A stretch of DNA of 64,000 bases from Siniperca chuatsi (taxonomy: Eukaryota; Chordata; Actinopteri; Centrarchiformes; Sinipercidae), in contig NC_058046.1 in assembly GCF_020085105.1 (NCBI RefSeq), positions 26,606,175 to 26,670,174 of the forward strand, read 5' to 3'. Positions 14,901 through 62,130 of the stretch are shown here, piece by piece (the first letter of the stretch is position 1; each line of letters opens with the position of its first letter). The notes beneath the pieces are model-generated. The model saw only the letters and a list, made by a program, of their open reading frames with translations, did no database searches and was not told the origin of the DNA. Position numbers and translations under genes: made by a program.

Positions 14901-16107
14901 GATTGAGTATGGAACATAAATGTTAACAAATACTATGTCCAGCTAAAGTTGTTTTTTATGCAACATGATGGGAAACATGTTTATTTCATTTAGTAATTTA
15001 TGAGTGGCTTGAGGACTTTGGCTTCCCTGGGATGGTCCTGCAGATGTAACAGAAAATTTAAACCGGTTTTACTGCAGTTTCCCTGCATTACACCATGCAG
15101 CAAAACACAAAAGACAAGCCTATTGACTCACTCCATCTAATATTGTGATTTATAATTTGGAGAGTTTCTATTAATTCATTGTTAATTCATTAATTACCCT
15201 TGATCCCTATAACAGGATCATTTGATTTAGACCGGTGAATTTGATTAAAAACGTGCTGAATGGAGAGGGATGGTGTGACTGTCCCCACTTTCATTCCAAC
15301 ACATTCAACAACCTGTTGACCCACCTACAGTGACCTTGTTGGGGTTCTTGGGGTCAGGGAAAGACAGGTAGACCATGTACTCCTCTCTCCAGGCCTGGTC
15401 CAGGCCGGTTTCAGGGTCCTGCCATCTCTTTAGCATAAACTGCACTGTCTGCTCATCTCCAGCTGTGGTGGCCATATGGGGCACTTTGGTCAACTCCCTG
15501 TGGAGGAAGATGAGGATAAAGAAAAGTTTGATTGAATAATGTGTTGGATATTGTCTAAAACCTAAAAGGGCTGTGAGGAAACCACAAAGGGATCTTGAGA
15601 CCATGGAGCTTTTTCAAGAAGGAATATGCTATAGGGAAAAATTAAGATCCGAAATTAATCCCATGACCAAGAATGTGAATGAGCCTTCAGTTTATGTAGA
15701 GTGAGACACTTCATTGCGAAACCCAAACATAAAAGCTGCTTGAACATTTTAGTAGGCTGAAATCTCTAATTCCCCTCTTTTTTCTCACTTTCCATTTTTG
15801 ACTTCCTGTTCTCACATTTCTTATCACTTGAACAAATAAACAAAATGAAAAGAATAATTGCGTGCCCAACATAATCTTTGTTCGATCATTCATAAACTTG
15901 CCTTAGGTTTTCCCGAATCTGAATGTTGTCCACCTCAGACAGGAACTCCTCAATGAGGCTCTCGTCCACATCCTTCGCCACATCCTTCACCCAGGATGGT
16001 GCAGAGCTGCTGCTCGTGCTGCTGGTGATACCGTAGTGGCCGATTAGGATACCTGCGGTCAGTACGGCAGCACCACACAGAATCCCAATCAACACCTGCT
16101 TTATCAT
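5993..16107 (-). CDS. naaladl1: N-acetylated alpha-linked acidic dipeptidase-like 1 (M28 metallopeptidase)
   Basis: Complete gene of 19 coding exons (minus strand, 5' to 3'): 16107-15902, 15497-15325, 14763-14642, 12910-12791, 11773-11581, 11347-11254, 11155-11051, 10560-10475, 10364-10245, 10153-10068, 9703-9640, 9275-9208, 9078-8987, 8467-8374, 7770-7689, 7409-7236, 6821-6734, 6628-6536, 6170-5993. The product is 745 aa, close to the 740 aa I recall for human. Seen: a short cytosolic start and a signal-anchor helix (about residues 4-25, [19 protein letters not shown]), then a PA-type insert ([26 protein letters not shown]) inside the M28 fold. The co-catalytic zinc set is complete: H375 (NHRDSW), D385 (AIDPSSG), catalytic E423 and ligand E424 (WGAEEF), D452 (INVDIAVF), H553 (YPAYHTAYD). 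Family knowledge: type II membrane exopeptidases related to GCPII; NAALADL1 is an intestinal aminopeptidase/dipeptidase. Inference: an active ectoenzyme. Intron 1 appears to be GC-AG. Neighbour erap1 is divergent, about 3.3 kb away. Confidence 0.95.
6415..6512 (-). repeat. Fish dispersed repeat fragment
   Basis: Lies in the last intron of naaladl1. Read on the minus strand it contains the words CACCGCTGTGCCTAAGTACA and CTCACAGAGCAGCTAGCATG, which I recognise from memory as the end of a very common teleost dispersed repeat rich in 'gctaacatgctaac' words. Only about 100 bp survive here. Family name not assigned. Confidence 0.5.
12120..12600 (-). mobile_element. L2/CR1-like LINE reverse-transcriptase fragment
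   Basis: Lies in naaladl1 intron 4, on the same strand as the gene. The minus-strand frame from about 12600 to 12240 reads through [38 protein letters not shown] and [19 protein letters not shown], the N-terminal finger region of fish L2/CR1-clade reverse transcriptases. The match stops after [10 protein letters not shown], before the catalytic YxDD block, and the sequence beyond is unrelated. The endonuclease and the rest of the RT are missing, so this is a dead truncated copy. Clade assignment is from memory. Confidence 0.8.
13395..13545 (+). repeat. LINE/SINE 3'-tail type repeat
   Basis: Lies in naaladl1 intron 3. GTGTGAATGGGGTGAATGTG followed closely by GAAGCGCTTTGAGTGCTTTT resembles the '...aaagcgctttgagtgg...' tail shared by many fish retroposons. 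It is degenerate and without coding potential. Confidence 0.5.
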
Positions 16108-16779
16108 TCTCCTCCCTGGAATTAGGTCTTCAAAAAAGAAAGTTCACCTTCTCTTTGGACCTGAAGCTTGTCTTCAAAGTCCAGGAATGTTGCTTGATGT
16201 TGCTTATGAATCGAGGGCTTATGTTAAAGAAAATCCTCGCATCTGATTCACAAATGATCACTGCAACACCAGTGCAGCTGCTGAAGTGACCTCCCATAAG
16301 AAATAGACATGCTCATTGTAAAGTTTACTCATTAATGTTTGCAGATGGGATGGACTTTATCCCTTTGTGTATGTGGGTGAGGGGGGGTAAATCTATTTAT
16401 TTTCAATGTTAACACCCACACTGTGTGAGTATGTTAAAAATATATTTGGATTTCATTTGATAGTCAGTATTTATTTTGTTTGAAAGTTTAAATCCTCACC
16501 AGTTTCCAAAGTGAGATTAGGATTTGGAGAGTGATTTCTGAAAAGGGGGTTCTGGATGCAAAAGTGGCCATTTACAGAGGGTTAAGTACAAAATGAAAGA
16601 CTTGACATGTTTTACCAAAGCAAAATTAATTAGCTAACTGGATTCATAAAAATACTTTGAAAAGCTGAATGAGCAGTTGTTTTGTCAAAGCTGTGGCAAG
16701 TTTGGAATGATGGAGTGGAAACATCTATCTTTACTACTACAATCCTGTATTCTGTATTTTAGTCTACGTTAGTCAGTTT
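16108..16779. other. Upstream region of naaladl1
   Basis: Holds the naaladl1 5' UTR and presumed promoter on the minus strand. No TATA box at a convincing position and no further exon was seen. AT-rich sequence continues into the inverted repeat that begins at 16780. Confidence 0.4.
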
Positions 16780-17176: not shown

Positions 17177-17721
17177 CATTTTATAATACAGCCCGCAATT
17201 TACAGTGTAACTGTTGTATGCATTAGTTACCAATAAAGTACTTACTGGTTCCTACTGCTACAGGTACAGAGGAACTAAACAAGACTATGGGGAACAAGGG
17301 AGTAACAACTGACCATTTTAGAGGAAAGGAGAAATAAATCATCCTCTGTTTTTGTAAATACTGGGTACCTTTGTGGTACAGTACTGGGAAACAAAACAGT
17401 TACTGTACTGTACCCCCACACTGTTGGTAGTATATTATAACTCTATATACTTACTTGATATTCTGCAGAATATCAGTATTGTTAACAATACTGACAATAC
17501 AGAATGTGAGTATTGTTAACACCATTTTTCCCAAATCTCAGTTTTGTTTTCCAGTACTGTACCCCATAAGTAGTATTTATAAAAATGCTGAAATTATAAT
17601 ATATTTCTCCTTTTCTCCCTTGTTCCCCATAGTCTTATTTTTAAGTATCATTAAGTACTTTATTGGTACTTGATTCATACAACGAAATTACACTGTAAAT
17701 TGCAGGCTGTATTATAAAGTG
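17177..17721. mobile_element. Palindromic MITE-like element, full copy
   Basis: The outer ends are inverted: TTATAATACAGCC near 17181 pairs with GGCTGTATTATAA near 17705, and ACCAATAAAGTACTTA near 17230 pairs with AAGTACTTTATTGGTA near 17655. Inverted matches continue inward (ACTATGGGGAACAAGGGAG near 17283 with CTCCCTTGTTCCCCATAGT near 17617). With about 545 bp of mostly self-complementary, non-coding DNA, it has the build of a miniature inverted-repeat element. Family not assigned. Confidence 0.65.
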
Positions 17722-18203
17722 TCAGCATGTTGACATGGATTACAGGTGTGACTTTTGATCAACAAGGAAACCATCTCCCACTTAGATTATTATAAAACTG
17801 GACCTTTTCCATGTTTTGTTTTACTTTAAGAACAACATAATAGATAAAAGAGTGTAATTTGTTATTGGTTTGTTTTTTTTACCTGAGAAATATAATGTTC
17901 ATGAAACAAAATGGTCAAATTTCAAGGCAGTTTATTTCATTTTATAATGAATTTAAATGTCACAGCACTGTGTAATATAGTGAAAAAGCAATCAGAACTT
18001 TTAACATTTTAGTTGACTACATGACTGTTAGTGTAAGACAATGTTAACAGTTTGCTATGTTGTCATGTATCCCAATTTTATTTTCTATGTTCTTTTGACT
18101 GTTAACCTTTGAACTGACCCGTGTGTTTTGCTGATGCTCACTGAGGATGGGCCAAAATGGGACAATTGGGTTTAGGAGAAAGTTTTTTGCAATAAACCCT
18201 GGT

Positions 18204-18645
18204 GTTGTATGCATTAGTTACCAATAAAGTACTTACTGGTTCCTACTGCTACAGGTACAGAGGAACTAAACAAGACTATGGTGAGCAAAGGAGTAACAAC
18301 TGACCATTTTAGAGGAAAGGAGAAATAAATCATCCTCTGTTTTTGTAAATACTGGGTACCTTTGTGGTACAGTACTGGGAAACAAAACAGTTACTGTACT
18401 GTACCCCCACACTGTTGGTAGTATATTATAACTCTATATACTTACTTGATATTCTGCAGAATATCAGTATTGTTAACAATGCTGACAATACAGAATGTGA
18501 ATATTGTTAACACCATTTTTCCCAAACCTCAGTTTTGTTTTCCAGTACTGTACCCCATAAGTAGTATTTATAAAAATGCTGAAATTATAATATATTTCTC
18601 CTTTTCTCCCTTGTTCCCCATAGTTTTATTTTTAAGTATCATTAA
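18204..18645. mobile_element. Second, truncated copy of the palindromic element
   Basis: Matches 17213-17654 at a constant offset of 991 bases from start to end, so without a net gap over 442 bp, with only a handful of substitutions noticed (for example near 18284, 18480, 18500, 18527 and 18624). It lacks the outermost ~36 bp on the left and ~67 bp on the right of the full copy, and its right end runs straight into the right arm of the larger inverted repeat. Confidence 0.75.
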
Positions 18646-19382: not shown

Positions 19383-19932
19383 TTGAATTATTTGTACTAA
19401 ATCGGCGTGCAGAAGACGACACGGTAAGTTGATTATAGTACTCAGTTGACTGATGTTAAGAATGTAAGATAAAAAAGATATACCATTCTCAGTTTTGGTG
19501 AAATATGAGGGTTTTTTTCGATAGGGATTTGTGACCATAAATAAATGGAAATGTGTGGAATCGAAAGTGTTGCACTTCCAGCTCGTTCTAGAGTCAGTTT
19601 GTGCGTTGTCATTGTCTTATTTACTGTGTGTTTGCGTAGCAGTAGTTTGATTAACTATTCAACTATCACTGAGCATTTAGAAAAATGAGATACATGTTAA
19701 GAATGTGACACCTACGCCTAAGAAATGTGATGCTAAATGCTTTCTCAGTGGGCAATAAAGTCAGTCTTGAGTGTTCTGTAAGAACTGTCTGTGATCCCTG
19801 GTCCTTAGGAAATAAGATTTGTTATTTAAATAAAATGTAGAAAATGTACAAGCCAAAGTATTTCTGAACATAATCATGCATTTATGTTATTTGTATTACA
19901 GGTGAAAAGAACTTCCTGCTTTCATTGTCACC

Positions 19933-22900
19933 ATGTTAGCGGCTCCTCTCCTGTTGCTGCTGTTCGTTCCCTTTCCTTCCTCATCAGGAGCACAGCTGCC
20001 AAATCAAGGCCAAGCCAAGGTCGTCCCCATAGCCACCAATGGCCAGCCATTCCCCTGGGAGCACATGAGACTTCCTAAAACCATCTCCCCCCTCCACTAT
20101 GACCTGACCATCCACCCCAACCTGACCACCCTCGACTTTGTAGGCGTTGCTCGTATCCGGCTGGACGTGCACGAAGACACCAGCACCATCGTTCTCCATG
20201 CCAAGCAGATGCAGATATCCAATGTGCTGCTCCTTGCGCCTGAAGGTGTGAGGCCTCTCCGGGTGTTGGAGTATCCTCCTTTCCACCAGCTTGCGTTGTT
20301 GTCAGACTCGGTGCTGACCAAAGGTAGGAAGTATGAAGTTCAGCTGGAGTTTGCTGCCAACTTGTCTGACAGCTTTCACGGTTTCTACAAGAGCAGCTAC
20401 CGCACCAGCAGTGGGGAGGTCCGGTAAGAGCACGAATAACTTATTTTTCTATGTTTCTTTCAAAGGAGCTGCATGTAGCATTTTAACATCACTGAATCAG
20501 TCCCACATTATTTTGAGATTTAATGTAAATGCAATAAATCAAGAGTGACAAGATTGTCTGCTTTTCTAACTGCTTTTCGTTGGATATTACGGGATACTGC
20601 TCATGTGATGATGTTGTTTGTCCAGACAAATATGCAACTGGAAGCACCAGAGTTGATGGGAAATGTAGTCTTAACTTTCACAGCACTACCAACAGTACCA
20701 CAAGTATGAGACATGCTATGATTAATGTTGATGAAGGTCTCTTTTGTTTATGGTAATTATGCAACAAACTTAGATTTTATAGATTTTTGAAAATGCTACA
20801 TATAGCAGCTTTAATTATCCTTTTAGTCTTCTTACATCATGTTATGTTAAACATAATATAACTTTTTGACTGTTATTTATTTACATATTTAGGGTTCTGG
20901 CATCCACGCAGTTTGAAGCCACCTTTGCTCGTGGAGCCTTCCCCTGTTTTGACGAGCCCGCCTTCAAAGCCAACTTCACCATACGTATGATACGAGAGCC
21001 ACGCCACATAACCATATCCAACATGCCCAAGGTACACATGAATGCAGCAATATCAGTTTACTTTGTTTTAAGTACAAGTGCGGAATAATTATAAATAAGA
21101 ACTGGTTGACAAAATTGAACTTTAATAATGAAGCGCACTACACAGAAAAGAAGCATTCTGATTTTTAAAAAGATACTAATTCACCCTACTCCAATTGTAA
21201 TTGACCTGTTTCTTTTCTTCATTTCTATCACTACGCACCTGTGTTTCTCAGGTAAAAACAGTGGAGTTGCCAGGCGGTTTGCTTGAGGATCATTTTGACA
21301 CCACTGTAAAAATGAGCACTTACCTGGTGGCCTACATTGTGTCTGACTTCCTGTCTGTGAGCAAGACCACCCAGCACGGTGTCAAGGTGAGGAGGACAAC
21401 AGATGCTGGCCATGCCATCATTTAGTTCTCTCACTCAGAAACTGTGTATACAGAAATATTTGTACATTTTTAATTTAAAGTATTTTGGAGAGACATCCTC
21501 GTCAGTGTATACAGTACAGTATACATTTGAAAGTGTCACATAACAACATGCATCCATTGATAAAACGTAACATATTGCTGTAACATTAATACTGAGGAGT
21601 TCTTTACTTTGATTACCATCAGATTTCAGTCTACGCTGTACCTGAGAGGATCGACCAGACAGCCTTTGCGCTGGATGCTGCTGTCAAGCTGTTGGACTTC
21701 TACGATGACTATTTTGATATTCCTTACCCGCTTCCCAAACAGGGTCAGTGGAAATACATGTTATTACCATGTTTTAAGACGTAGCCACTTGAGTAGCAGT
21801 AGCTGCAGTATTTATTTTGCAAAATTAAGTTTTCTGTTTTGACTTGACAAAGAACTGACTAAGCTAGTGAGAGTTTAATGATTTAATGTACTTTTTTTTT
21901 TTCTACTTAAGAAAAGACATGTTAATGCCATATGCCAGAAATGCCATAGGGCAGAATTAGCATTAATGACCTCTGACCCTGTTAACCGTTGAAAACAGTG
22001 TGTCAAAGTCACAGGTCTGTGTCTGTTTGTGATCTCTCATTCGTCTGTGGAAATTGTGTGGTTTGGATGGCAAATGTCTGTCCTTTGTGCAGACATCCAG
22101 GATCACATCTTATCTCATGTCTTACTGCTTGGAGTGAGGTCACTTTGACCGACCAGCATATACTACATATGTACATTTAAAGTTAGGCATTTAACAGTGC
22201 AAGTGCTCTGTGCCCTGAATAGATAAAACATTTGTCTACTCTTGAATGAACGGCTGTAGGAAAGTACACATATTTAAAAAAAAAAAAAAAAAAGAAATAA
22301 AGAGAGGGGGGCTCAGTTGAAGTTTTGTTAAACACATTAAAACGGCAATACGTACAGACAATAATTAACATCTAAAAAATGATTTGTGTTAGTACATATT
22401 TCAAAGGAGAATTGAAGAGACTAGTTTGACCAGCAGGTGACGTGAATGTACCATATTTAGTTGTATTTATGTGCTTGCTGTTGTTCCCTGCAGACCTGGC
22501 TGCTATCCCTGACTTCCAGTCAGGTGCGATGGAGAACTGGGGGCTGACCACTTATCGGGAGGCGGGCCTCCTCTTCGACCCTGTCAAGTCCTCAGCTTCA
22601 GACAAACTGGGTATCACCAAGGTCATCGCCCATGAGCTCGCACACCAGGTAGCTGGCCTACATCTGTTTTGGAAACTAAAAATAACTAGTTGGTGTCAAA
22701 GTTCATCATTCTGTACAAGAAAACTTGCTTCACTTTTATGGGTCGAGGATTGAAGTTGGAAGCCGCAGTCTCATGCTACAAGCTGTACAGTACCGTAGTA
22801 CACTACAGTACAGTAGTTACAGATCTGTTACATCCAGAGTCTTTAGTGCAGGTTAACAGGACTAAATGTGAAGATGCATTTGTATGTTAAACACTGTTCT

Positions 22901-33443: not shown

Positions 33444-35532
33444 ATGTCATCTCACTACATTCCCATTCTAGAGTAAGACACATTTCTTTTCATCTACAAG
33501 TTTCTTGGGTAATTAAGTCAACCATTTTTTGTTTTGTTGACACTGGCTTTACTTCCTCATTGAGTGGTCCCACAGACCCGACAGCTGCATGTACTGCGTA
33601 AGATTGATAATAATTGAAAAATCTGACCTTGTTAAAACTGAACAGTATGAAAGTGTAAACCCTGCCCTTTACCACAAACTGAGCTTTCACTATTGATGAA
33701 AGTGACGAAATATGGAAATGACCACAAATAATTGTATTTACATTAAGTAAGGACATATTTCATGTTTTATATGTTATATTGGCTATGCATTACAAATATA
33801 GTATTCTTTTTCTTTGACAAAAAGTCACTCACAGAGAAAGAAATGTATAGTTTATTATCCTACATAGTGATGTAGCTGGGTCAGTTAAACCCTAGAGAGG
33901 TCTAAGTCTGTGTCATACCTCTTATGAATAAACTATAGTAAAATTCCAATAACAGAAATTCAAATAAACTTATTCGGAATTTGGGAGGGGTTGCGATGTG
34001 CAAAAAGAACTGTCAACACCAATCACAGCTGGGGTCTCTGAGATCCCAAACAGAAGTAATGTGTTGTTTTCTGTAGTGGAACCCTGAAACATGTCATCAG
34101 TTCAAAATTATTTTTATAAGCACTTCTCATAAAACCAATAAAATAGCATCAGTATAATAATATGTTATATAATAAAATGATAAAACTAGTACAGTCTGTT
34201 TTTTAGCTCTTAAGAGGACCCGGGATCTCCAGGACCCTAAACACAACATTTAAAATCATTATAACTTAAAAGGCATAACTATTTCATCATCAATAATGTC
34301 TTTTTAAATACAAATGGATTTGGACAGAGTAAGGCCATATATACTGTATATACAGTATACTGTATGTATGTGTGTGTGTTTCTTGTTCTTATATCCCGGT
34401 GGGGACTTTAACCTGAATGCACACCAACCCATGGGGACTTGTGTCAGAGTGGGAGTGGAGACAGCTTTCTGAGGGTTTAGACTTGGTTTTAGGGTTCAGG
34501 TTGCAATCAGGTTAGGGTTAGGGTCAGGGTTAAGGTTAGGCATTTAGATGTGATGGTTAAGGTTAGGGTAAGGGGCTAAGGAAAGCATTATGTCAATGAC
34601 TGTCCCCCACAGGGATAGTGAAACAAATGTGTGTGTGTATGTGTGTGTGTGTGAATTTGCTCTGGTGTTTGAAGAAAGTTTTTCTTCTTAATTTTTGCCT
34701 ACCTCCACTTCCCTCTCCCTCCCTTTCTTTCCTTTCACTCCTCCACCTTCCCATTGACACTTCCTTCATTGCCTCTTCTCTTTCCTATCATCCTCATCTA
34801 TCTCTCACCTTCAAACCATTTCCCACACTCTCTCTGTCTTCCTCTGTTTTGCACCCATCTCAATCTTTCTCATCCTCCTCTCACCCATCTCCTCCTCTTC
34901 CTCTTCAAGGATCTTCCTGGGCATCCTGGGCTTCGGCCTCTCCATCATGTTCTGCACGACCTTCTGCAGGGCGTGCAGTCGCTTAAGGGAGGAGCATATA
35001 GAGAGGGAGGCGTGGAGACGCAGTGAGCAGGACGGGTGCCCTCGTTCGATATATTTCATCCCCTACCCTAGAAGAATGTCACAGCAGGACAGTGAAGACC
35101 ACCACAGGGTGTCTCAACACAGCCAGGAGCTCCACACACCACCACAATACAGTACTGCTGTCTACTGTGGGCCCCCACCTTCCTATAATGAGGTGATTCT
35201 GGAACAAAACCACTCAATGACAGATCAAAACTGAAAACTTTACTAGCCAGACCAGGATGCATCAGATTGTGTCCCATTTTGATTTTGCCTTCAGCACTTC
35301 CTGTCCCCAAAACCCTGAATTCAATGCAAAAATAATTCACATAACATCTACTTCAATGTGTATTTCCTGGTATTTAATTTTTTTACTTTGTGTTTCTTCC
35401 TGTGTATTTCAGCTGGGATTCAAGCCTGAGGATCTTCCCCCTGCTTATACAGAATATAACACTCCTGTGTATCCCATCACACCTCCACCTCTCACAGACA
35501 TGGTTCAACCACAAACACAGTCACAACCATAA
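33444..35532 (+). CDS. Predicted small single-pass membrane protein with PPxY motifs
   Basis: Gene model: exon 33379-33472 (start codon 33444), exon 34910-35192, exon 35413-35532 (stop TAA); 143 aa. Borders are CTAGA/GTAAGA, TTCAAG/GATC, AATGAG/GTGATT and TTTCAG/CTGG; phases join. Seen: a short start (MSSHYIPILE), then a hydrophobic helix ending in cysteines (IFLGILGFGLSIMFCTTFCR), a basic/acidic juxtamembrane stretch with more Cys, and a Pro/Tyr-rich tail: TPPQYST, GPPPSYNE, LPPAYTEY. PPSY and PPAY are PPxY motifs, which bind WW domains such as those of NEDD4-family ubiquitin ligases. Inference: a type III-like membrane adaptor with a cytosolic tail, possibly palmitoylated. The plan resembles TMEM92, WBP1, VOPP1 and TMEM139, but no specific orthologue could be named. 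If the last intron is retained, the frame continues from 35193 to a TGA after SYNEVILEQNHSMTDQN. Confidence 0.65.
34370..34640 (+). repeat. Fish dispersed repeat with TTAGGG-like words
   Basis: In the intron before exon 34910-35192. GTGTGTGTTTCTTGTTCTTA and CCCGGTGGGGACTTTAACCT start the unit, several GGTTAGGGTTAGGG-type words lie in the middle (34495-34580), and CACAGGGATAGTGAAACAAA then (TG)n end it. I recognise this layout from memory as a common teleost dispersed element. The TTAGGG words are part of it and do not form a telomere. Confidence 0.65.
34690..34907 (+). other. Long polypyrimidine tract before a splice acceptor
   Basis: Roughly 215 bases of mostly C and T lead into the acceptor CTCTTCAAG at 34909. 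The tract is far longer than a normal acceptor tract needs. Confidence 0.85.
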
Positions 35533-48463: not shown

Positions 48464-48563
48464 TGTTGGGTGTGGGTGTGTGTGTGTGTGTCTCCACGCC
48501 CCCCATCTTTCATCCCAGTTCTCCTATAGGTTCGGTGCAAAGGTAACAGACAGACGGGGGCTC

Positions 48564-48569
48564 TATAAA
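48564..48569 (+). promoter_or_regulatory. TATA box of the acidic-protein gene
   Basis: TATAAA within GGGGGCTCTATAAAGACCC, 77 bases upstream of the start codon, which would place the transcription start near 48595 and leave a 5' UTR of about 50 bases. The sequence next to the ATG (CACACCAAAATGCC) is a good initiation context. Confidence 0.75.
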
Positions 48570-48645
48570 GACCCACTTTGTTCAATCCTCCACTCTGTTC
48601 GTTTAATTTCTTCGGTCTGTCTTGTTTCCATCAGCACACACCAAA

Positions 48646-51600
48646 ATGCCCAGCAAGAGGAAGAAGAACAAGCGTCGCATGAGGAGGGTGGTAAGTGGTG
48701 GCAGGCGCACTTTTCTCCCACTAGGTTTTTATTCTCATCACGATCATATCCAGAGTCTCTTGGACTTCATTCGAATATGAACCCAGGTCAGTTAATGGGG
48801 ACCTTCTTCTCTCGGAAAATGTTGGAGGAAAATTACCTTTTTGATAGTTTGTGATGGTGTTTTTTTCCCCTTGTTCTCTCTAACACTGTATTTCCAAAAG
48901 ACAAAACCCTGTTTTTGTTCACTTAACCCATGGCGATTACTGATGCGTAAAAATACAAATACTGCTAATAGTATTGCTTAATATTGATGCAAAATCCGTG
49001 TGTTTTGCACCTATGATCAAATTAAGCAAATAAACGAGTACTTAAAAAAAAATCGAAATTTCAACAGGAAATGGAAAAAATGGACAAGATGTTTTCTTTT
49101 AATTGGCAAGTCGGGTTTGTGTTAATTCCCTTAGTCAATCATTGCTTATTTGACTGCAAACACTCACACTTTGATGTTGCTTTTCCTGTGACGCACTCAA
49201 CTCCGAGGACGTCCAAGCTCCGTGCGTAAAATCTCGCAAAGACAGAAGGCTGCACCATCAAATAAAATAAAAAGGATTCTATCGAAATTATACAATCAAT
49301 TTCAGTAGCACGACACTTCAGATGCTTCTGGCTCTGCCATTAGGTGCGAGAGACACAGAAACTCCTTGGCTTACGGTAACTCTCGTGTGCCATTTGCGTT
49401 CTCAGTGCGCTTGCGCTGGGAACGTACGCTTAAAAGGTAAATATGCTGGGATGGAGATTCCAGGTTGATATAATTCTGTGGTTTATAGTAATTAAACGTG
49501 AAAAAGTACCATATTCCTAAATATGTATTCACTTATCATGCACTATACCCATTACATAATTCAATATGCAGAAGCAGTGGCGTAAATGACATGATAATTG
49601 ACTATTAACTGAATCCTACCCTCTCTACACTCGTCTTAGGTAAGTGTTTTACTTCTGAACATTGAGTGCCCAAAGAGGAGTGGGTGTGGCAGAGAGGGGA
49701 GGGAAGGGGAGTGGTGTATAATGAGTGAGAAAGTAGCACAGACGTTCCAATATCTCAGAGGGCAAAGGTTACTCCATCACCAAACACTGTTCTCCATCAT
49801 TTATCATTGTGTGTTTCATTTCCTAATCATAATAATTAATTATAGCCCTGCTCTTGTTTAAAATTTCAACTTGATTACTTATTTCACCACTAAAGGCTCA
49901 CTCGAAGCCTGGTCCTCCAGCTCTGGCAAGACTTCTCGGTATGGAGTTTGTGGCATTCTTCCCCCAACCCCTCCCCCTTCTTAAGCCTTAGCTGGCTGGC
50001 TAGTCCATGACTCTCAACACCACACAACTGTATTTGGTAGTGTGTTGTCTGGAGGAATTTCTTGCATTAGTTTTGCCAGATTGGAGTCTGCACAATCTCT
50101 CTGAGTCTGCCAGAGACACATAGATAAAAATGGGCCCTGAAGTCACTTACAGCTCTGTGTTATCACCAATTCCCTCAGAGATATCAGAGCAGAGAGGGAA
50201 GGAGCTGCTGGATACTTTAAAAAGTCAAGCTGAGTGCTCCTCTTTGGCCACACATGCCTTTGTATGTAAGCACCCAAACTTTGATAAAGGGTTTCTCTCC
50301 AAGGGTGGCTGGGCCTCCTCAATACAGCCTGAGGAACACAATTAATAAATATGATTGATTGATATGTGTATTACTCTGTAGTAGTGAGGTTTGGAGTTCT
50401 AGACAGTGAGCTATTTGGGGGCAAAGATGAGGGAGGGGTTGTTTTGACAGTGGCTAGGTGGACAGGCATAGACATATGCACTTATACACACATGCCTCAT
50501 TGGCTTACAGCATTGGTCTAGCACTGCGAATGCCTAACTGGCTGTCGGCCTAACAAAAGCATTTTCAGTGAGTGATTGTAACCTGATAATAACCTGATTA
50601 TGATGTGATTATGCCCACTGTCTGGCCCGCGGGGCACCCATCAGTGCTGCTGACTCGCACGGTTTCCATTCCCGCTTCACCAGACCTGTCAGTACCGCTC
50701 TGATTCAACTAATTAGCTCCCATTATCTAACTAGCTTTGCTGGGCCCACTCCCAGTTACCCAGCCCCTCCCTCCAGTAGTCTGCACTCCTAAAACCTCCA
50801 TTAAAGCCTGAGGGGGTTTTGTCCGGAGCTGAAAAACATGTTGGATCTGGCTGGGGTGGCATGTCTGATATCCTTGCACTGACAACAACATCAGTATCTG
50901 AACACGATGAGGGCCTCAGTAGCATTCAGACCCCTGAAACTCCCATTTGTTACTTATGTTTGTTTATGCTACAGAAAGTACCAAAGAGGAATCGTGTGGA
51001 AAGATCAAGTTTCACACACTCTTTAGCTATCAAACTTTTCAAGGATCAGTTGTTTGAGCTAAACATTAGTTTAGGGTTGAATTTATATTGTACAAATGAA
51101 ATAAAATAACAATATCTGCAGCAGAATGAGTTATAACTGCAGGATGAATGCATGAAAGAATCAAAAAAAGAATTGCTCCCATTGTAATGACAATACAACA
51201 ATCATTAACTTGTGTCTTTTCCCTCTTGCAGCAGGCCCAGAGGAGAGCCCTTGAAGAGCAACATGCAGCCAACCCGCCGGTCAAAGCGAGCCCCGGGATT
51301 GCAGTGAGTGCGCCCCCTGCAGCAGCCCCAAAGAAAGTGGCTAAAACTCCAGCACCAGCTCCAGAAAAGATCCCAGAGGCCATTCCTATTGCTGTCCCCA
51401 TTGTGGAGACCCCCAAAGTAGAACCAGAACCAGTAGTGATAGAACCTGTCGCCGAGCCCGTCCCTGTTGAGGTAGAGGCACCTGAGCCTGAGGCTGTGGT
51501 GTTCGAACAGACTCCAGTTGAGGTTGAAGTCCCAGCCCCGATCACTGAAGAAGCGCCGGTCATTGAGACTCCACCAGCGGAGCCCTCAATTGTTGAAGCT

Positions 51601-54600
51601 GCAATAGTACAGGAGGCTGAACCTATCATTCCTGAAACAGAACCAGTAACTGAGGTAAGCACTGCTTTGTTTCATACATGTATAGACATTTGACTGGGTA
51701 ATAAAAAGTGCTGTTCTCAAATGGACTTTCTGAACCAGTGGAGTCCAAAATTAACCAACAAGTATCTTTATAATTCTCATTAGAAAACATCCCCATGTGA
51801 TCTGATGTGATGGCTCTTCAAATGCCATTAACTGTATGAGCATAGATTTTAGCAGGAGAATAAGGCATGGAAATTTACCTGCCAATTCTGAAGCAATCTG
51901 ATCTTGAAAATTTGTAGAGATCCCAGAATGTGCCTTTTCACATTTTATGACATGTCACCAAGTTGGTTCCTTCTTGGGGCAATGAGCTGCATAGGGTTGA
52001 ACATGTACCTTCATTAAACGTGCATGCAGTTGCCAAGGAGGGGTATTTCTTGCCAGGTTAGATGCTTGTTATATGGGAATGTCCTGATTGAGAAATAATC
52101 TGAAGTAGGTTTCATTTTGCATATGGTTTGCAGGAAAGATACTTTTCACTGACTGTTTCTGTATATAGTATGTAAATAGTATGTCTGTCTGTAAGTTTTG
52201 AGTTTTGTGGACGACCGCTTTAGATGCTGTTTGGTCAAATGGCATGTGCTGTGGCTGGGTCCTTATGGGAGAAGGGAGGTGGAATTGGTGGGGGGTGGCA
52301 GGCAAAGGGAACAGCATGTTCCATTTAGCAAAGAGGTGGAAAGTAGAGTGATTGTAGGCTACATCAGTGGGAGACTGGGCAGAGCCTTTTTCGGCAGTCA
52401 TTATACATTATCACCTACATTAAAACATGCCAATAAGCACGTGTCGTCTGAAATATTACTACTTTGGATAAGAAGAAAAATTGGCTGATTGGATAAGAAA
52501 GATGCCAGATAGTTATCACCATGGTGTTGGACTGCTTTTGTTTTTCATTTTATTGCACCACAAGAAGAGGTTGACCAAATTTAATGTGCTGTATTATAAT
52601 ATAAAACTTTTTTGCGATATGCTATCAATGAAGTTGGTTTTGAGTTTTAAAGTCAATGAAGTTAGTGAATAGGATGAAAAAGCTTGCTGTCCTCTGTTGT
52701 ATTTAAAGAAATTCATGGCTTTTGACTATTTGCACATGCTCCATATCTATATTGCATTTTTACTATACAGAGCGTTGTACCAAAAAATATATCACTAAAT
52801 AATTCCAGATATTGCTTTTCCTCCCAAATCAATACATTTTAATTAGTAAGTTGAAAAATGATGGATCACATAGTCTTTGTTGTTCATGCAGCCATCATGC
52901 ATGCACTTTGGGAACATAATGTTCTGTTTCAGCCACTAGACTGCAAGCTATGCGCAGGCGCACACATGAGCTACAAATACATGTACATCCGTCTGCCTAA
53001 ACTCAGTGCACATACACATTTGCAAATGGATACACACACATGCACATGTGAGCATATGGTCTTTCATATGCTCACATGTGTGTACGTGTGTTAGTGTGCC
53101 AATGAGTGCATGATGGGATGGATGTTTAGTTGGAGGTTTGGATTGTAACCTCTAACCCCCAAGTTTTGTGCTCTACACACTGAGCTATACAGGACCAATA
53201 AAGAAGCTTCTTTTCTCTAGTTGTTAAGCCACACCACTCCACCCATCTTTTTCCTCCCTTCTTGCCTTGCTTCTTATCTGCTCCTTCACCGCTTGCACAT
53301 GTGCCAGATTCAGCTCGGACGCTCACAATCACGCGCACACTCGTGCACTTTTGCAAAACTGAAAATTAGTCTGTGCTGGCTGTAACTCCAAAGACATACA
53401 GTAGCATGTTAAATATATGGTGCAAGTAATGTTTTATGAACTTTCCCAATTTTGACTTTGTGGCCACAGTTCTGCAAGAAAGTGTTCACTCTGTGACACC
53501 ACGTGTCAGACTAGAGTTGGACATCACTCGGTCAGTTGATCGATTGATGATAGAATCAGAGCAGGTATAAATGGGTCTCATATTCAGCTGGCTTTGGGAC
53601 CAAAGAGATGTGGCCCCTTAGCTTCTGGTTGTCACCACGGAGACTCAGGTGAGTATAAACCCACCACCCAATCTACAGATCTGTTGAGTGTTTCATTTTT
53701 CGTGGCCTGAAGCAACAGTGGGTGTGGCTCCTGCTGAAGCTGAACATTTTGTACCATCTTGCTTCCTCTGTGTTCCTGCAGCCATCCACTCCTCCCCCCT
53801 CCATTCCCTCACCCCTCTTTCCCTTGTTAATTTACTCTCCCTCACCACCCATCCTTCCCTCCCACCACTTGTTCCTCTCTGTCTCTCCTTTGTCCCTCCT
53901 CAGCCCTCCCTCTTTTACTTTTCTCTTCACCCTTCTTCTTCCTCCTTCCCATCTTCCATCCTCCCCCTCCCCTCTTCCCCTCCTGTCCTATGGCAGCCTA
54001 TGTGCCCCTTTTTTAGATGTTAAGTCAGCATGTGCACTTGTTCATCTGTTTCTTCCTTTACAAATGGGTCTTTGCTGGGAGTACTGGGAGTAGACAGGAT
54101 TGATATTGATATATATAGGTAGGATATTGAGTTTTATGTTGGGACGTGGGGGGTGCATCTGCCTCTAGTAGTGTAATTTAGCCTTTGGTATTTGTGTGTT
54201 GAAGAGGAGCTTACAGACAGCTGTCACAACCTTTTTAAAGTCTGACAAATATGTAGTGAAGGGATGACTTGGGGTACATTTGCTTTCAGGTTGCTCACAA
54301 TGAAAATGCTTACAACCTGCTTACAAATTATTGGTAAGCATATTTGCTTTTATCACATTTGACATGATGAGAGAAAATAGTGGGTGACAAAGATGTGCAA
54401 AGTGATACTTTTAACGTTTTTGGACTTGGGGTGGAAAAATTATCACCTTGTGGCAAAGTATGTGAGGACATCAACCCCCTTGCCCCAGTGTCCAGCCTTC
54501 CTCCACAGACATGTGCACATGCAACCCCACACACACACACATTTCCTGGTAACTTTTATGGGTTTGTTTTCAGGGACACTGTAGAGCTTTGTTAGCTAAA

Positions 54601-57600
54601 CCATACACTTTTGCAAACTCGGTTCACAGACATCCTGAAAAAGCCAAAATGAGAGTTGTTTATTTGAGAGCATAAAGTTACAGATCATTGCATTGCAGGT
54701 ACACTATGTCCTTGTCTATGGATTTAAATGGTCTGTGTAAAAGGTGACCGTTTCTAGATCTGCTATGATTTGCACTGAATTTGTCTCTTAGTAGGACTGT
54801 GGAGGCAGCATCTGTGTGCAGATCAGTTTGGTACATAGTGTTCTAGTGACAGACTGGAGGGGGTGTGTATACTTTATATATGTTTCTGTCAAGCAAAGGA
54901 AGGCCTGTAGTCCACCCCTCCCCCTCTTTCCTTCCCTCCTCCTTTCTCTCCCCTATACCTCCCAAGGTTATATCTGGAGTATATATTGACCCTTCCCAAC
55001 CATACGTGCATTTTTGCCCACTTGGCTTTTGTTCAGAAGTTGTTAAAATCCAGGAGAACAGGGTTCCACACCTCTCAGTAGCACAGCCCAGAGAAAGAGG
55101 TGGAGATGGTTAAGTAACTCGAGTGTAACCACAAGCATTTTAATTGTCCTCTGTGAGTTTTCACTCTGTTCTAACTACTGTAGATGGATGGATTTAGGTG
55201 ATTTTGGCCAATGGCTGATCGGCTCGTTCCTGACTGCATGCACCAGTCTTGTCCTACATTGAAGACGGGCTGTACAAGACAGTCTAAATAATTTACTGTC
55301 AGACTATGAAGATTTACAATATTTATGTGCTGCTCCCTGTGATTGCCACTATGGCTCAACACACTTGGATGCGCAGTGGGTGCCGCCAGTGACCATTTAG
55401 GCTACTGCCAACTGTTCAGTAAATTGATGGCAAGGCTACAAACGTGGCCCTGGCATAGAAAAACAAGGAAAATATGGTTGACTTCTGGCATTTTCTGGGC
55501 ATAAGTGTTTAGAAAGTAAGTATTTCTATGAGTAATACTATGAGTTAATTAGTTAAATAGTAATACAAGTAGGTCTAAAAGCAGTGCTGACTACAGAACA
55601 TCGCCTCTTGTTCTGGTAAAGATTCAGTGTCTTGCTGAGGGACTCTCTCTAGAAAGATTAAATGATGTAAAAGATGTTGGCGTTTTTGGAGTAAGGACCT
55701 GATGATGAAAGTAGTTTAGGTGAATAATTAAGTTTTCTGAATCTGAGCTGGATTATAGAAAAGGGGGTGAGAAATGGGTGTACCAGCTTCCCATTATGCA
55801 ATTGGTTGTAACATTCCTGTAGGATGTATAATGTTCCTCCCCCTTCTCCTGAACCACATCTACACTCACACAATAAGCATACTCTTAAAAAGAGTGTGTG
55901 CATTTGTTGTTTGTGTGTTGGTAGACTGCCAATGCAAATTTATGATCCAAAAACACTAATTTTGGCAAACGTTTCCTTTTTTGGACACAGTAAACCTGCT
56001 TAGACTCTCACTGGGTTCTTTGTTAAATGCCTCGGGGCAATCACAGCTACAGTTTGGCTGTCAAACTGTTGTGTAGTGTGTGAGCGCTCCTTCCAAAGCT
56101 TGACCTTTTAACTGTTCGGAGAAAAAAAAATAGGATAATGGCAGCAGCGTAACATGAGGCAAAGATTTTTAATCGCTTGTTAATGTATCCCTGGGTGCCT
56201 TTTTAAAAAAATGAGATGTACTTTCTGCCATCTCTGCTCTATTTTATTAGATTAAATACGTGTATATCTTTATGATTGTTTTGTGGACTCATGAATAAAC
56301 TCTTTCCTTCATAGGCCGTACCCCCAGCTGAGGCTCCAGTGGTGGCTCCTGCTGAGACTGAGGTAAAACAAACCTGCATGTTACATTTATACACACACCC
56401 AACCCCTTTTCTGTCCCCCTAACCTCATCTTGCTATGGCAGTATATCTTTGTGGTGTAAGCCAGAGGCAAAGTACACAGCTATGAAGCAGTACGAGTGGA
56501 ACATAACTCAACATGACATTTCAAGTGAGACCTGCTTTGATTTTTGAACAGCATATCACAGAGACCACTTTAAATGTCTAGAACAAGTTGTTAAAGCAGT
56601 GTTGTATCTTGGAGATTTGCAGGTTTAATTCCAGAGCTGTCTGGAAAATGTTTCTTACAAAGGAAAACTATTTAAAAACATGATTCCCTCTATATTAAAA
56701 AAGAAAGTGTTGTAGTGACGTAAAATCACTAGTCTTAATTGATTAGTGGCTATTCAAGCTAACCACACATATAAAGCATAATAGAGTACATTCATTGAGC
56801 ACAAGAAACTGCCTGTAATGTAACACATTTCAGTGGAAAAGTGCTGAAAGTTTCTGTGACTTACGCTTCACACCTTACAAATAATGACCACACTTTGCCT
56901 CAGGTCTCTTTCTCTTGCATAACACAGTGCTCCAATCACAACCTGGCTCACCTACTCCAGATGTTTTCAGGGAAAACGCCTAAGAAATGCATCTCGTTAA
57001 GATATAATTTATGGTTTCTTTAAAGTATAAATAATTTTTTATGGATCTGCAAACAAAAAAGAAGAAATCAAAACCACCTAAAATTGCAGTTAATAGGGCT
57101 TTGATGTGACATAAGTGCTGCAAATGGTGTGAAAGTTGTAATTAGGCAAGTCCCTAGAAACACAGCTAGGTATGATCAGTTAAATTTTATCGTAATATTG
57201 CTTTACGCTGTAGTCTAATATTTGCTGTTAATGTTTAACAGGTAAACAGCCATTGTCTTGTTGTTCTTTTCATCCATCTATTGATTCTATATATCTATTT
57301 GCTATAGTGTTTTTATTTTTCACTCTCCAGATTCAGACAGAGGAGACTACAATCATAGCCACAGAGACTGAACAGGTGAGGCGGATCTTCTTTATCGTAG
57401 CATTCATTTGTAGTCTTGATCGTGCATGATAGATCAGTATAATTTCGTCTACCTTAATTTGCATTATATGCATTATTCATATGGACAAATCGTTACCTAT
57501 TTGTTCCATTGTTGCATGTTGCATGGTTTCTTAATGTGTGCCATGTTGATTTTGCATGTGCAGACGCATAATGTCTGCGCACCAGAGACTAAAGTGGAGG

Positions 57601-60600
57601 CTGAGGCCTTAGCAGAGGAAGACGCACCCTTTGAGGCTGAGGTGGAAGTGGCCGTCACAGAAGCCACTGAAGAACCGGTGGTAGAAGCACTTACTAGTGA
57701 CAAAGTTTTTGCTGAAGCAAAACCCACTTCAGACGAGGTGGTTACAGAAACAGTGGTGGAATCGGTGGAGGAGGTTATCGCAGAGATACCTGAACCAGAA
57801 CAGGTGACTGAAGCCGTTGTCAGTCCTGCAGCCCCAGAAGAAGATGTCGCTGAAGAAGATGAACCTGAAGTCCCCACTGAGCCTGTTACAATGACAGAGG
57901 TGCCACATTGATAAAAATACTTAACTCTTCTCTCTTGAATTCTTTATCTCCTTCCAAGAACACACAATGATACACGTGCATTTTTGACTTTTATGTAGTT
58001 TTTACATTTTTATTTTGTGATCGTCTGTGTGCAGCATGTGGCTTGGAACAGTTGTTGTGGAAGTTCCCATCACTCATTTATCATTCAGTAGTATTGCTGT
58101 AAATGCTTTCTTGAATATCAAACAAGATAGGGATAGCTATTTTCTAATCTTTTTAACAGCTGACAGCGCAAAAGAGTGACGATTTGTTTTTTCTTTCATT
58201 GGTTAGGAACCAAACCTCTCCTGCAGTAGCCCTTGTCCTGCTGTGTTGGAGCAGGGAAAGATCTAAAACATGCAGGACAAGGGGTACTCCAGGAGAGGTT
58301 TGGAAAACCCTGGGTTAGGTTATCAAGCAGGTGGTCAAAAGTAGAACTTCCTCTATGGCTACAATGGTAAATGGTGTTCTGGCATGTTTCTTACTTTGCA
58401 TAATTTCTTTAAAATTTTAACTTAACAGCAAAGACTAATGACATACTGTGTCCTTTTTGTTTTGCGTACATCAGGATGCCCCTGCCCAAGCTGTGGAAAT
58501 CCCAGTGGTGAGTATTTTATTTATTTATTTTCCCCCCATCCAGAAATACATTATATGGTTGATAACAATTATAACACAGTTTACTTATTAGCTTCCTCTT
58601 GCTGGAGCCTTTGCTTTGCAGCATTTGAGTAACAGGTTTTTCTATAAATGGTAATACTTCAGAAGTAGACATTTGACTTTGGCCACGGCTGTGTGTGTTG
58701 TCCTAAATAATGACATGGCAGTATCTGTTGTCTCACCAGGTGCCAGTCACGGTCCCCGAGGCTCCGGTAGAAGAGGCTGAAGCCCCCGTAACTGAAGTCA
58801 AGGAGGTAAAACCTAAACTGAAACCTAAACAATTTTAATCTACACATTATGTAAAAATGCACTCCAATCTTGATGGATGAATCACGTTTATGGGTTATGC
58901 TATTAATAAATTATGTTCTTAAAAGGTAGCCAGCTATTTCTACCCATATTTAAATTGATACAAAATTCAACATCCCTGTCTTAAATTTGTGATGTAGCAT
59001 TTAAATTAATGATACAGTTCAGAAGCTTCAGTTGACATTTTCTCCTGGGATGCTTAATAATTAATTGCCCTCATTCATTTGGTCTATGTTTTGTGTGTGC
59101 TGGTATGTGGAAAATCATTCTTATCGTGTTCTCCTCTTCTCTCTCCAGGCACCTGCCACCCAGGAGACTGCCGCCAGCCTAGTTGATGACTTTGTTGTCA
59201 CAGAATCTGCCTCAGCAGTGGAGGTCGCCATTGCAGAGTCTGCAGCTGTCGAGCCGGTGAGAACTACACAAACAGGAATTCATCATTAGACACTACTACA
59301 ATTGTTACAGTTAATAAACAACATCTTTTAAGTCCCAAGAAATTTCACATTTCATTGGCATCCTCGCTGATGTAAAATGGTCCCTGTTAAAACAGCAAAG
59401 CTAACCTGAGCAGTTGCTTAGGGTCCCATGGCCACCAGAGGGCTACAAAACACATATCATCATCTAAATTTTTTTTTTTTTTTTTTTTACATAATGCACA
59501 TCTGTACATATGTATAAAAACCAAAATTATATTTTAGTATCATTCATCTTTAATTTAATCCACACCTTGTTTATTGTTCTACATGATTCAGAATTGGCTT
59601 TATTGGCCAGGTATGTGTACACATACAAGGAATTTGACTCCAGTTTTTTGCTCTCAATGTACATACACAGAAATAGACATAAATACAGCTAAAAACAAGG
59701 ACAACAAGTTAAACAAACATTAAGCTACTATGTGCAAAGATATATATATATTTTTTTTTTTTTTTTTTTTAAGTATAAAAAACAACTAACATTTGTATTA
59801 GTAAGACAATTAGTGAAATGGTGCTGAAATAAATATGATTAATGTAACCGGTTGCTTTATATATGGCGGCACATATTAAAGTTAATTTTAAAACTATTAA
59901 CCACATTAAATTACAGTTTGATGTGTTACATCAGGATATACCACATTCCTAATGGATATTGTGGGGTAACACAGTGTGATGAGCTACCATTTTTAATAGT
60001 GTGCAGGTTACAGTGAAGCCAGATGCATTCTTGTAGTTACAAAAGTGACTTGCTGTCAACTCAGCGCAATTTTGGTTATTTCATTTTGACATAAATCTGA
60101 CTGAAATGTTGCTGCGACCTTAAGATTCAAAGACCAAGGGCATGTTTATTGCACATAATACATTTGTACAAATTTTATGCTCAGCTTTTTTAACGGGCAC
60201 CTCTCTCTGCTTGCTATATTTAGGAAATTGTGGAAATGCGTGACACCCTCAACACCCAATCAGAATCTGTGGATGTGATGCCCACTGAGCCTGAGCCTGC
60301 TGCTGCTCCTGCAGAGGAAATGGTCATTGTGAGTTACTGTCAGGCTTTTACCATGTTATACAGACAGTAACTGAAATCTGGTTTATTGTATTGTATAAAA
60401 TGTTTAATATATAGCTTGAAACCTAATTTGGTGTAGCTTTGTATATGATGCATGTAATTAAAAACACATTTAGTAGTAAACCACTATATGAAGAGATTGT
60501 GCAAGTCTTCCCGTGTTACTTCCCTCTTTTATTCTGCTTATGCAAAGAGTATGTGGGGCTTTCTTCACTGTGGTTCTGGTTACGATCTACTCTGTCTCCT

Positions 60601-61014
60601 AACCGCACTCTCTCCCCTCCCTTCCTTTCCAGGATGCCACTGCTGAGCAGACATGTCCGGATGTGCTGTCAGAAGAGCCTAAGTCAGAAATCTGTGACAT
60701 GCCATGTCAGATGCAGCTCGCTGTAGAATCTGTGCAAATCAGCTCAATGGTAGGCATGGCTTAAAAAACTGGGGTCACAAATACACATGTTCCAGTTATT
60801 TAGAGTTGACATGTACTAATTAGAGTGTTTGTTCATTTAACATAGATTTGTGGATATTCAAAATATCTTTAACTGGGAAGTTTATCAGATATTATCAATA
60901 TTGGGGATTTGCAGTGAACTCACCTGATCTAATGTCTTGTTTTCTGCTCAGGAGATGTCAGTGGAGCCATCGCTGAATGGACACATTGTTCCAGAGGTCT
61001 CCATTGAGGGCTAG
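48646..61014 (+). CDS. Acidic Glu/Pro/Ala/Val-rich protein of unknown family, modular exons
   Basis: Gene model of 11 coding exons: 48646-48690, 51232-51654, 56315-56362, 57331-57375, 57564-57899, 58475-58507, 58740-58805, 59149-59256, 60224-60328, 60633-60749, 60952-61014 (stop TAG); 462 aa. Every exon is a multiple of three and phase 0-0. Seen: a strongly basic first exon (MPSKRKKNKRRMRRV), a short charged segment (QAQRRALEEQH), then a long low-complexity chain rich in E, P, A, V and T with repeated EAPV-, PVEVE- and EPV-type words. Only a few Cys, no transmembrane helix, no signal peptide, no catalytic motif. It ends EPSLNGHIVPEVSIEG. Likely intrinsically disordered with a nucleic-acid- or membrane-binding basic head (inference). 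I do not recognise the family. Calpastatin, the ERAP1 neighbour in human, is not supported: no TIPPxYR motif. A TATA promoter suggests restricted or inducible expression. Confidence 0.8.
49640..51231 (+). other. Intron 1 of the acidic-protein gene, downstream part
   Basis: No coding exon recognised. GC-box/CACCC-like words (GAGTGGGTGTGGCAGAG near 49678) and a block with homeodomain-type TAATTA/ATTATC words (50560-50830) make it a candidate regulatory intron. It ends at a tandem CAGCAG splice acceptor at 51229-51234. Confidence 0.35.
53622..53648 (+). other. Candidate 27-base microexon
   Basis: CCCCTTAG/ precedes and /GTGAGT follows a 27-base segment that reads LLVVTTETQ in the frame of the flanking exons, like exon 4 (IIATETEQ). 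Strong donor, weak polypyrimidine tract. Not included in the 462-aa model. Confidence 0.35.
53778..53993 (+). other. Polypyrimidine/polypurine tract
   Basis: About 215 bases almost wholly C and T on the + strand, rich in CCTCCC and CTTCC words, in intron 2 of the acidic-protein gene. Not a simple tandem repeat. Confidence 0.85.
58210..58303. repeat. Short palindromic repeat (MITE-like hairpin)
   Basis: The 32-base left arm (58210-58241, CCAAACCTCTCCTGCAG...) pairs with the right arm 58272-58303 (...CCAGGAGAGGTTTGG), with few mismatches and a 30-base loop containing GGAGCAGGGAAAGATCTAAA. These words occur in a common teleost non-autonomous repeat. It lies in the intron before exon 58475-58507. 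Confidence 0.75.
59589..59665 (+). repeat. Fish retroposon tail fragment
   Basis: CAGAATTGGCTTTATTGGCC then GGTATGTGTACACATACAAG and GAATTTGACTCCAGTTTTTT: the recurrent 'tcagctttattggccaagtatgt' fish tail. T-runs of about 20 bases lie on both sides (near 59468 and 59752). In the intron before exon 60224-60328. Confidence 0.65.
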
Positions 61015-62130
61015 ATACACATCACACAGCTTGGAAGACTTTTTGTCTTTGTAAGTTTCTCACAATACTGAATCAGTGCTTTATCACAAAGATTGAATCT
61101 CATTTCTTAGTTGTTGTTTTTTTTTTTTACTCTCTGACCCTGTTAACCTCTTTTTAAAATGACTGTTTCCACTACTTCCAGCAGCCACTAACCAGGTCCC
61201 TGTCTTATTCTTTGTCTCTTTCAGATTCCCCTTTGGTCATTTGGAGGGCTTGAGGCTTTACAGGGAGGCAACCAGAACCACCAGGAAATCGAAGGGACAT
61301 CCACACTTTGAAGTGCCTTTCCGGCCCTTGTTCCTGTCAAAATACCAAACCAGATGTCAACATGCCAAAACTGCTGCATTCAAGGCAGCACAACCGACTG
61401 TTGTCATAAGTGCGCAGAAATGGAAACAAACACATTGTGGCTCCTTTTTTAACTGTTTCTCCCCAAAAGTACGTACAGTAGTTTTGCATTAACAGTGGAA
61501 GAAGAAGTGCTTGAGAGATGGAGATTCATAAAACACGATAAATGGCAGTGCCTGATATTTCTTGGCGTGTTCCCATCTCTTCAGAACATCTTCTTCCATA
61601 CTACATACATTCAGTGCTTGTGAATACTGTAGCTTCGATGAATGTGTCTACAGTTTGTACTTGAGCCAATGGGTGGGAGGGACAACTTTGTCATTTATTT
61701 TGTTTGTTTGTTTTGGTTTCACATTTAAAAATCACAGATTTTACCTATCAGGCCCTTTTTATATCCTCAAAGACACATCTACAAACTCCCCCCTTACCTC
61801 CATTTCTGTCCTCCAGTTCTCCCCTCTGCCACAATTAAGTGCCAATGCTAAGGTTAGTGTGATGCTAAAACACATCCTAAAGCTAGAGTTTCAGATCATA
61901 TGGCCACTGGAGAATGACAGTTTGAGGAGATAAGCGGAGAAGTCATTTTCTGTTTCTTCTGTTCCTTGCTTTATCTGTTTTTTAAGTCCTTTTGTAAAGA
62001 CCATATGATGTGCTACAGTTTTGTGTTCAAAGTCTGTGCTCTGGAGGGGAAATGTAATGTGATCTGGTGATGAGGATCGCTGTTTATGGGCTGACTTGAT
62101 CCATTTTTGAAATAAAGCTGTAACACATCA
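61015..62130 (+). other. 3' UTR of the acidic-protein gene, probably with an intron
   Basis: After the TAG at 61012-61014 a donor-like TTT/GTAAGTTTC occurs at 61050/61051 and an acceptor TTGTCTCTTTCAG at 61224, so a 174-base intron in the 3' UTR is likely. The UTR then continues to AATAAA at 62111-62116. Confidence 0.55.
62111..62116 (+). promoter_or_regulatory. Poly(A) signal, acidic-protein gene
   Basis: AATAAA in TTTTTGAAATAAAGCTGTAA, followed within 40 bases by a GT-rich stretch (GTCCTTGTGTTAC), a good cleavage-site context. Confidence 0.7.

Follow-up and report, generated by a model that had tools for sequence, protein, structure and literature searches.

The locus studied here raises two questions: what kind of gene is built wholly of exons that begin and end between codons, and whether such a gene must have grown by exon duplication. 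The stretch of DNA examined, called the window below, comprises 64,000 nt of Siniperca chuatsi contig NC_058046.1 (positions 26,606,175-26,670,174), which is labelled C5 in the 719-Mb genome. The initial annotation had described a gene of 11 phase-0, multiple-of-three exons here, and the gene was rebuilt exon by exon from the sequence.

Gene model of the 11-exon locus

The rebuilt gene lies at 48646-61014 on the + strand and gave one open reading frame of 462 residues, with all 11 coding exons present at the lengths first described (45, 423, 48, 45, 336, 33, 66, 108, 105, 117 and 63 bases for exons 1-11). AG precedes exons 2-11, GT follows exons 1-10, every length is a multiple of three, and all the joins, which are predicted, are phase 0. 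From these lengths and phases it follows that any internal exon can be skipped without a frameshift, as had been claimed. Judged by its sequence, the locus looks like a genuine animal gene with predicted joins. Its features are as follows.

48564..48569, + strand: TATA box (TATAAA), 82 bases 5' of the ATG, from sequence
48646..48690, + strand: coding exon 1, basic head MPSKRKKNKRRMRRV, donor 9.6 bits
51232..51654, + strand: coding exon 2, 423 nt, first residues QAQRRALEEQ, tandem acceptor 51232/51235; frame, splice scores, model helix over exon residues 2-12
56315..56362, + strand: coding exon 3, 48 nt; frame, splice scores
57331..57375, + strand: coding exon 4, 45 nt; frame, splice scores
57564..57899, + strand: coding exon 5, 336 nt, or 240 nt with splicing at the stronger donor 57803; acceptor 5.4 bits; frame, splice scores, cassette scan
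58475..58507, + strand: coding exon 6, 33 nt; frame, splice scores
58740..58805, + strand: coding exon 7, 66 nt; frame, splice scores
59149..59256, + strand: coding exon 8, 108 nt; frame, splice scores
60224..60328, + strand: coding exon 9, 105 nt, weak acceptor 5.0 bits; frame, splice scores
60633..60749, + strand: coding exon 10, 117 nt; frame, splice scores
60952..61050, + strand: exon 11, closing 63 bases of the frame with the stop (61012-61014), followed by 36 3'UTR bases up to the likely donor
61225..62130, + strand: likely non-coding exon 12 in the 3'UTR, with an approximate end and AATAAA at 62111; acceptor 10.6 bits, poly(A) signal

Splice sites were scored with a generic consensus that was not trained on the Siniperca chuatsi genome, and by this measure 17 of the 20 sites exceeded the 95th percentile of sites of the same type in the window. 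The sites below it were the acceptors of exon 5 (5.4 bits) and exon 9 (5.0 bits) and the exon 5 donor at 57899, which is weak (3.8 bits against a 90th percentile of 4.1 for the window's 4003 GT sites). Inside exon 5 there is an in-frame donor at 57803 with 8.9 bits, compared with a window 99th percentile of 8.4, so on sequence grounds some or all transcripts may carry a 240-base exon 5 in place of the 336-base one. The 96 bases past 57803 are composed like the remainder of the protein, an argument for their being coding in at least some cases. When donor 57899 is not used the frame continues VPH to a stop TGA at 57909-57911, and no AATAAA or ATTAAA that would serve a shorter transcript terminating in exon 5 was found between 57901 and 58475.

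The exon 2 acceptor is a tandem CAGCAG, and the choice between 51232 and 51235 is frame-neutral. At the 3' end, a likely 3'UTR intron occupies 61051-61224 (donor 4.4 bits, acceptor 10.6 bits), with weaker alternative acceptors, for example at 61182. The original exon table was thus right for all 11 coding exons, but it had missed the likely 3'UTR exon, and the 3' end that it gave for exon 5 is uncertain. The stop ends 36 bases before the likely 3'UTR donor, and by the 50-base rule a stop this close to a downstream junction would not trigger decay.

Both strands of the window were also scanned for open AG...GT segments of 20-450 nt with an acidic, E/P/A/V/T/I-rich translation. On the + strand 21 of 482 segments were such acidic cassettes and all were inside the 11-exon gene, while the - strand had none (0/582). 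In the 50 kb around calpastatin on contig C2 the corresponding counts were 7/519 on the + strand and 0/371 on the - strand. The confinement to this gene within the window indicates that the exon set is no chance assembly. The 21 cassettes are overlapping variants that cover seven of the nine internal exons, exons 9 and 10 falling below the composition cut; 14 of them were phase 0 at both ends and all 21 were phase 0 at the end. Besides the known exons and their sub-variants, the scan found no extra intronic cassettes of like composition.

Surroundings of the gene

Several other features were seen in the window. An M1 aminopeptidase N-terminal exon, which we take to be ERAP-like, lies at 19906-20424 on the + strand (PF17900, E 5.5e-16), and 5' of it are two 300-nt direct copies, 98% identical and 991 bases apart (17212-17511 and 18203-18502). 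A reverse-transcriptase fragment of a retrotransposon was found at 12123-12593 on the - strand (Pfam RVT_1, E 6.6e-8). The open frames at 7171-16143 on the - strand resemble an NAALAD2/FOLH1-type peptidase, and of the four frames scanned there two had matches below threshold, one to a PA domain (E 0.0047) and the other to DUF3948 (E 0.043). The + strand frame at 34758-35231 resembles the final exon of a small membrane protein; it carries a PPSYNEV motif close to the end and has no Pfam match above cut-off. In the right flank, a - strand frame at 1397-1705 (flank numbering) has no Pfam match and resembles cyclin-G-associated kinase (GAK). Rfam gave 0 matches in the window at the gathering score.

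Properties of the predicted protein

The predicted 462-residue protein has a mass of 48.9 kDa and a pI of 4.05, starts with MPSKRKK, and consists largely of E (19.7%), V (14.9%), A (14.9%) and P (13.6%), with 3.2% lysine. Net charge was +10 over residues 1-33 and +2 over the next 33, and each 33-residue block from residue 67 carried -5 to -12. This split along the chain bore out the description of a basic head joined to an acidic Glu/Pro/Ala/Val chain.

Charge-hydropathy analysis put the whole chain on the boundary (H 0.480 vs 0.476). An AlphaFold2 single-sequence model of exon 2 alone, built without an alignment, had one helix (exon residues 2-12) and no other structure, with a mean pLDDT of 67.3 and a pTM of 0.13. 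Disorder of the acidic chain is plausible from these models, though not certain. No segment in the whole protein reached the hydrophobicity of a membrane helix: the maximum 19-residue mean was 1.21, and the usual limit is 1.6. In a short-motif test with 10 patterns, AKAP-type helix, PxxP, CK2, LC8, LIR, SUMO, 14-3-3 and EV showed no excess over shuffles; the only patterns that exceeded them, both uncorrected, were a basic NLS-like run (P=0.002) and RxxL (P=0.006), with 2 sites each.

The initial annotation could assign no known family, and our searches agreed with it: the protein had no Pfam match at E<=10 and no relative among PDB sequences at E<=1. The genome was then searched for paralogues with residues 1-156 and 369-462, a search in which the handling of low complexity may hide diverged relatives. 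The only match of residues 1-156 was their own locus (1/1 at E<=10), and for residues 369-462 three of four matches were the gene's own exons and the fourth was a chance-level match elsewhere (E 8.6). On the sequence searched, the gene would have no detected paralogue for these two regions, and no family is assigned.

Why all exons are phase 0

Taking the generic phase-0 share as 0.46, ten phase-0 joins out of ten have a chance of 4e-4, and the figure is about the same with the soft exon-side consensus of this gene (45.5%). The corresponding chance for nine symmetric internal exons out of nine is roughly 7e-4 to 3e-3, with exons taken as independent and with the symmetric-exon shares that an excerpt of PMC4838654 gives for mostly disordered proteins (44% without collagens and 53% with them). 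Genes with so many exons number some thousands, and at this chance a few to a few tens of all-symmetric ones would be expected.

Of the codons of this gene 53% start with G, and AG is a common ending. Over the coding sequence, junctions included, AG/G sites were phase 0 in 30 of 34 cases and AG/GT sites in 8 of 8, while the looser pattern [AC]AG[AG] was phase 0 in 16/48 and phase 1 in 32/48; three of the ten real junctions have the AG/G form. The soft exon-side consensus was phase 0 in 45.5% here vs 38.5% in the ERAP-like exon, and looser codon-usage measures put 33-46% of sites in phase 0. Among donor-like sites scoring 4 bits or more, 5 of 5 within single exons were phase 0, as were 5 of 6 over the spliced sequence. 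When the codons were shuffled, such sites averaged 7.96 in phase 0 vs 1.47 in the other two phases, a phase-0 share of about 84%. Against these shuffles the actual sequence, with 5 phase-0 sites and 1 other, had no excess (P=0.94 for a phase-0 count this high, P=0.53 for an other-phase count this low). Codon usage explains the phase-0 pattern in part, on the donor side, which the shuffling covered: strong donor-like sites fall between codons because the codons often start with G and end in AG. According to an excerpt of PMC4446445, the sequence of splice sites biases junctions towards residues that promote disorder, Glu and Gln among them, and this bias fits the codon-usage account.

One could go further and regard the sequence as a coding language proof against splice errors, in which codons that start with G and often end in AG make nearly every strong donor-like site within the arm frame-neutral, so that splicing noise and regulation alike could do no more than alter the arm's length, and in which such genes can gain exons without duplication. 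We consider this improbable. The gene showed no excess of such sites beyond what its codons predict, which gives no support to selection for frame-neutral donor sites.

Exon duplication and other explanations

The initial annotation regarded the exons as similar short modules that suggest growth by duplication, and the arm would then have grown by tandem duplication of phase-0 exons that now serve a family of splice isoforms. Symmetric phase-0 exons throughout would permit such growth, but part of the phasing is already accounted for by codon usage, and the likeness of the modules did not go beyond composition. When exons 2-11 were compared with shuffles, only 2 of 45 pairs as protein and 5 of 45 as DNA reached p<=0.05, with about 2 expected; the best ungapped internal self-match had P=0.11, and there were no tandem repeats at 48500-61300. 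The best DNA pair was exons 2 and 9 (p=0.005), and exons 6 and 7 were alike as protein (p=0.015), both values being uncorrected for 45 pairs and both in favour of duplication. Intron 2 contains a stretch (53724-53743) with 90% identity over 20 nt to exon 3, which may be a fossil exon or chance and counts on the same side, but it is too short to carry the claim. Since the exons are hardly more alike than composition predicts, duplication is left unsupported, and we hold this origin of the arm to be unlikely; the duplications could also be old and fully diverged. A still less likely origin, which we rejected, is a diverged calpastatin duplicate that retained only the non-inhibitory, L-like region. 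Mammalian CAST and ERAP1 are neighbours, and here an ERAP-like exon lies upstream of the 11-exon gene; moreover, the calpastatin of the same genome is apparently made of similar short phase-0 exons, since a crude scan of its locus kept 19 cassettes of which 10 were phase 0 at each end. However, all four listed Calpain_inhib (PF00748) matches were on another contig, C2, near 23.96 Mb, and the 462-residue protein has neither such repeats nor any other Pfam match at E<=10. None of the 9 genome matches to the ERAP-like exon was on C2, the others including C5 at 17.7 Mb, C15, C1 and C23, so this neighbour, the one compared, is not shared with the C2 locus. The calpastatin locus, with its short phase-0 exons for P/E/A/V-rich sequence, is a precedent within the same genome for the exon architecture, not a relative.

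A role in muscle has somewhat more in its favour, although it is doubtful and can be taken as a lead only. The protein would then be a fish striated-muscle protein that forms a PEVK-like spacer of the sarcoplasmic reticulum or the myofibril, of the kind named 'fibrous sheath CABYR-binding protein-like', a name that automated pipelines give to E/P/A/V-rich fish proteins. An entry of this name stands in a horse mackerel skeletal-muscle peptide table (excerpt of PMC6473766), but in that excerpt it is a name alone, with no sequence link to the 11-exon gene. The 1.5 kb before the ATG contains two CAGCTG E-boxes and no strict MEF2, CArG or MEF3 consensus, the latter speaking against this role. The zebrafish muscle marker si:ch211-266g18.10 was considered as a counterpart and set aside, as no link to the 11-exon sequence was established. 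It is listed under sarcoplasmic reticulum in an excerpt of PMC9748118.

Proposed role and comparison with known systems

Our preferred reading, to which we give a probability of about 0.5, is that the gene is genuine and encodes an intracellular protein with a basic helical docking head and a flexible acidic arm whose length is adjustable by splicing. The head (about residues 1-27) would dock on a negatively charged partner such as a membrane, a filament or a nucleic acid, and the long Pro/Glu/Ala/Val arm, having no stable fold, would act as a flexible spacer or brush; composition is the basis of both proposals. Because every exon is frame-neutral, the arm could be changed in length without damage through exon skipping, the alternative donor of exon 5 and the tandem acceptor of exon 2. 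The phase-0 pattern would arise partly from codon usage, with no need for exon duplication. The weakness of the annotated exon 5 donor, and a chain that is not clearly disordered by charge-hydropathy, were counted against this docking-head and acidic-arm reading.

MARCKS, BASP1 and GAP43 are also proteins with a basic head and an acidic tail whose remainder is A/E/P-rich, and the basic N-terminal stretch and acidic A/E/P-rich remainder of the present protein resemble them. It differs from them in its many exons and the lack of a family match, and an N-terminal myristoylation signal is absent, since it starts MP and not MG. The titin I-band and PEVK region offer a second likeness, a P/E/V-rich unfolded chain from frame-neutral exons (disorder of the present chain being plausible), and an excerpt of PMC12580133 reports that 93% of the alternatively spliced exons in the titin I-band are symmetric. 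In contrast to titin, the product of the 11-exon gene, as known from predicted joins, is a stand-alone protein of 462 aa with a basic head and little lysine in all (3.2%), and no Ig/Fn3 domain or titin match was found in it (Pfam E<=10; PDB sequences E<=1). With symmetric-exon genes at large it shares consecutive exons of equal phase, and the excess of symmetric exons among disordered ones is attributed to collagens (both from an excerpt of PMC4838654), whereas the present protein has no collagen match in Pfam. A frame-safe design of phase-0 exons is already familiar from other unfolded proteins.

A gene with phase-0 exons throughout need not imply exon shuffling or duplication, for codon usage alone can set most strong donor-like sites between codons. 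If real, the gene described here would be one more member, with no family assigned, of the class of unfolded proteins whose length is adjustable by splicing.
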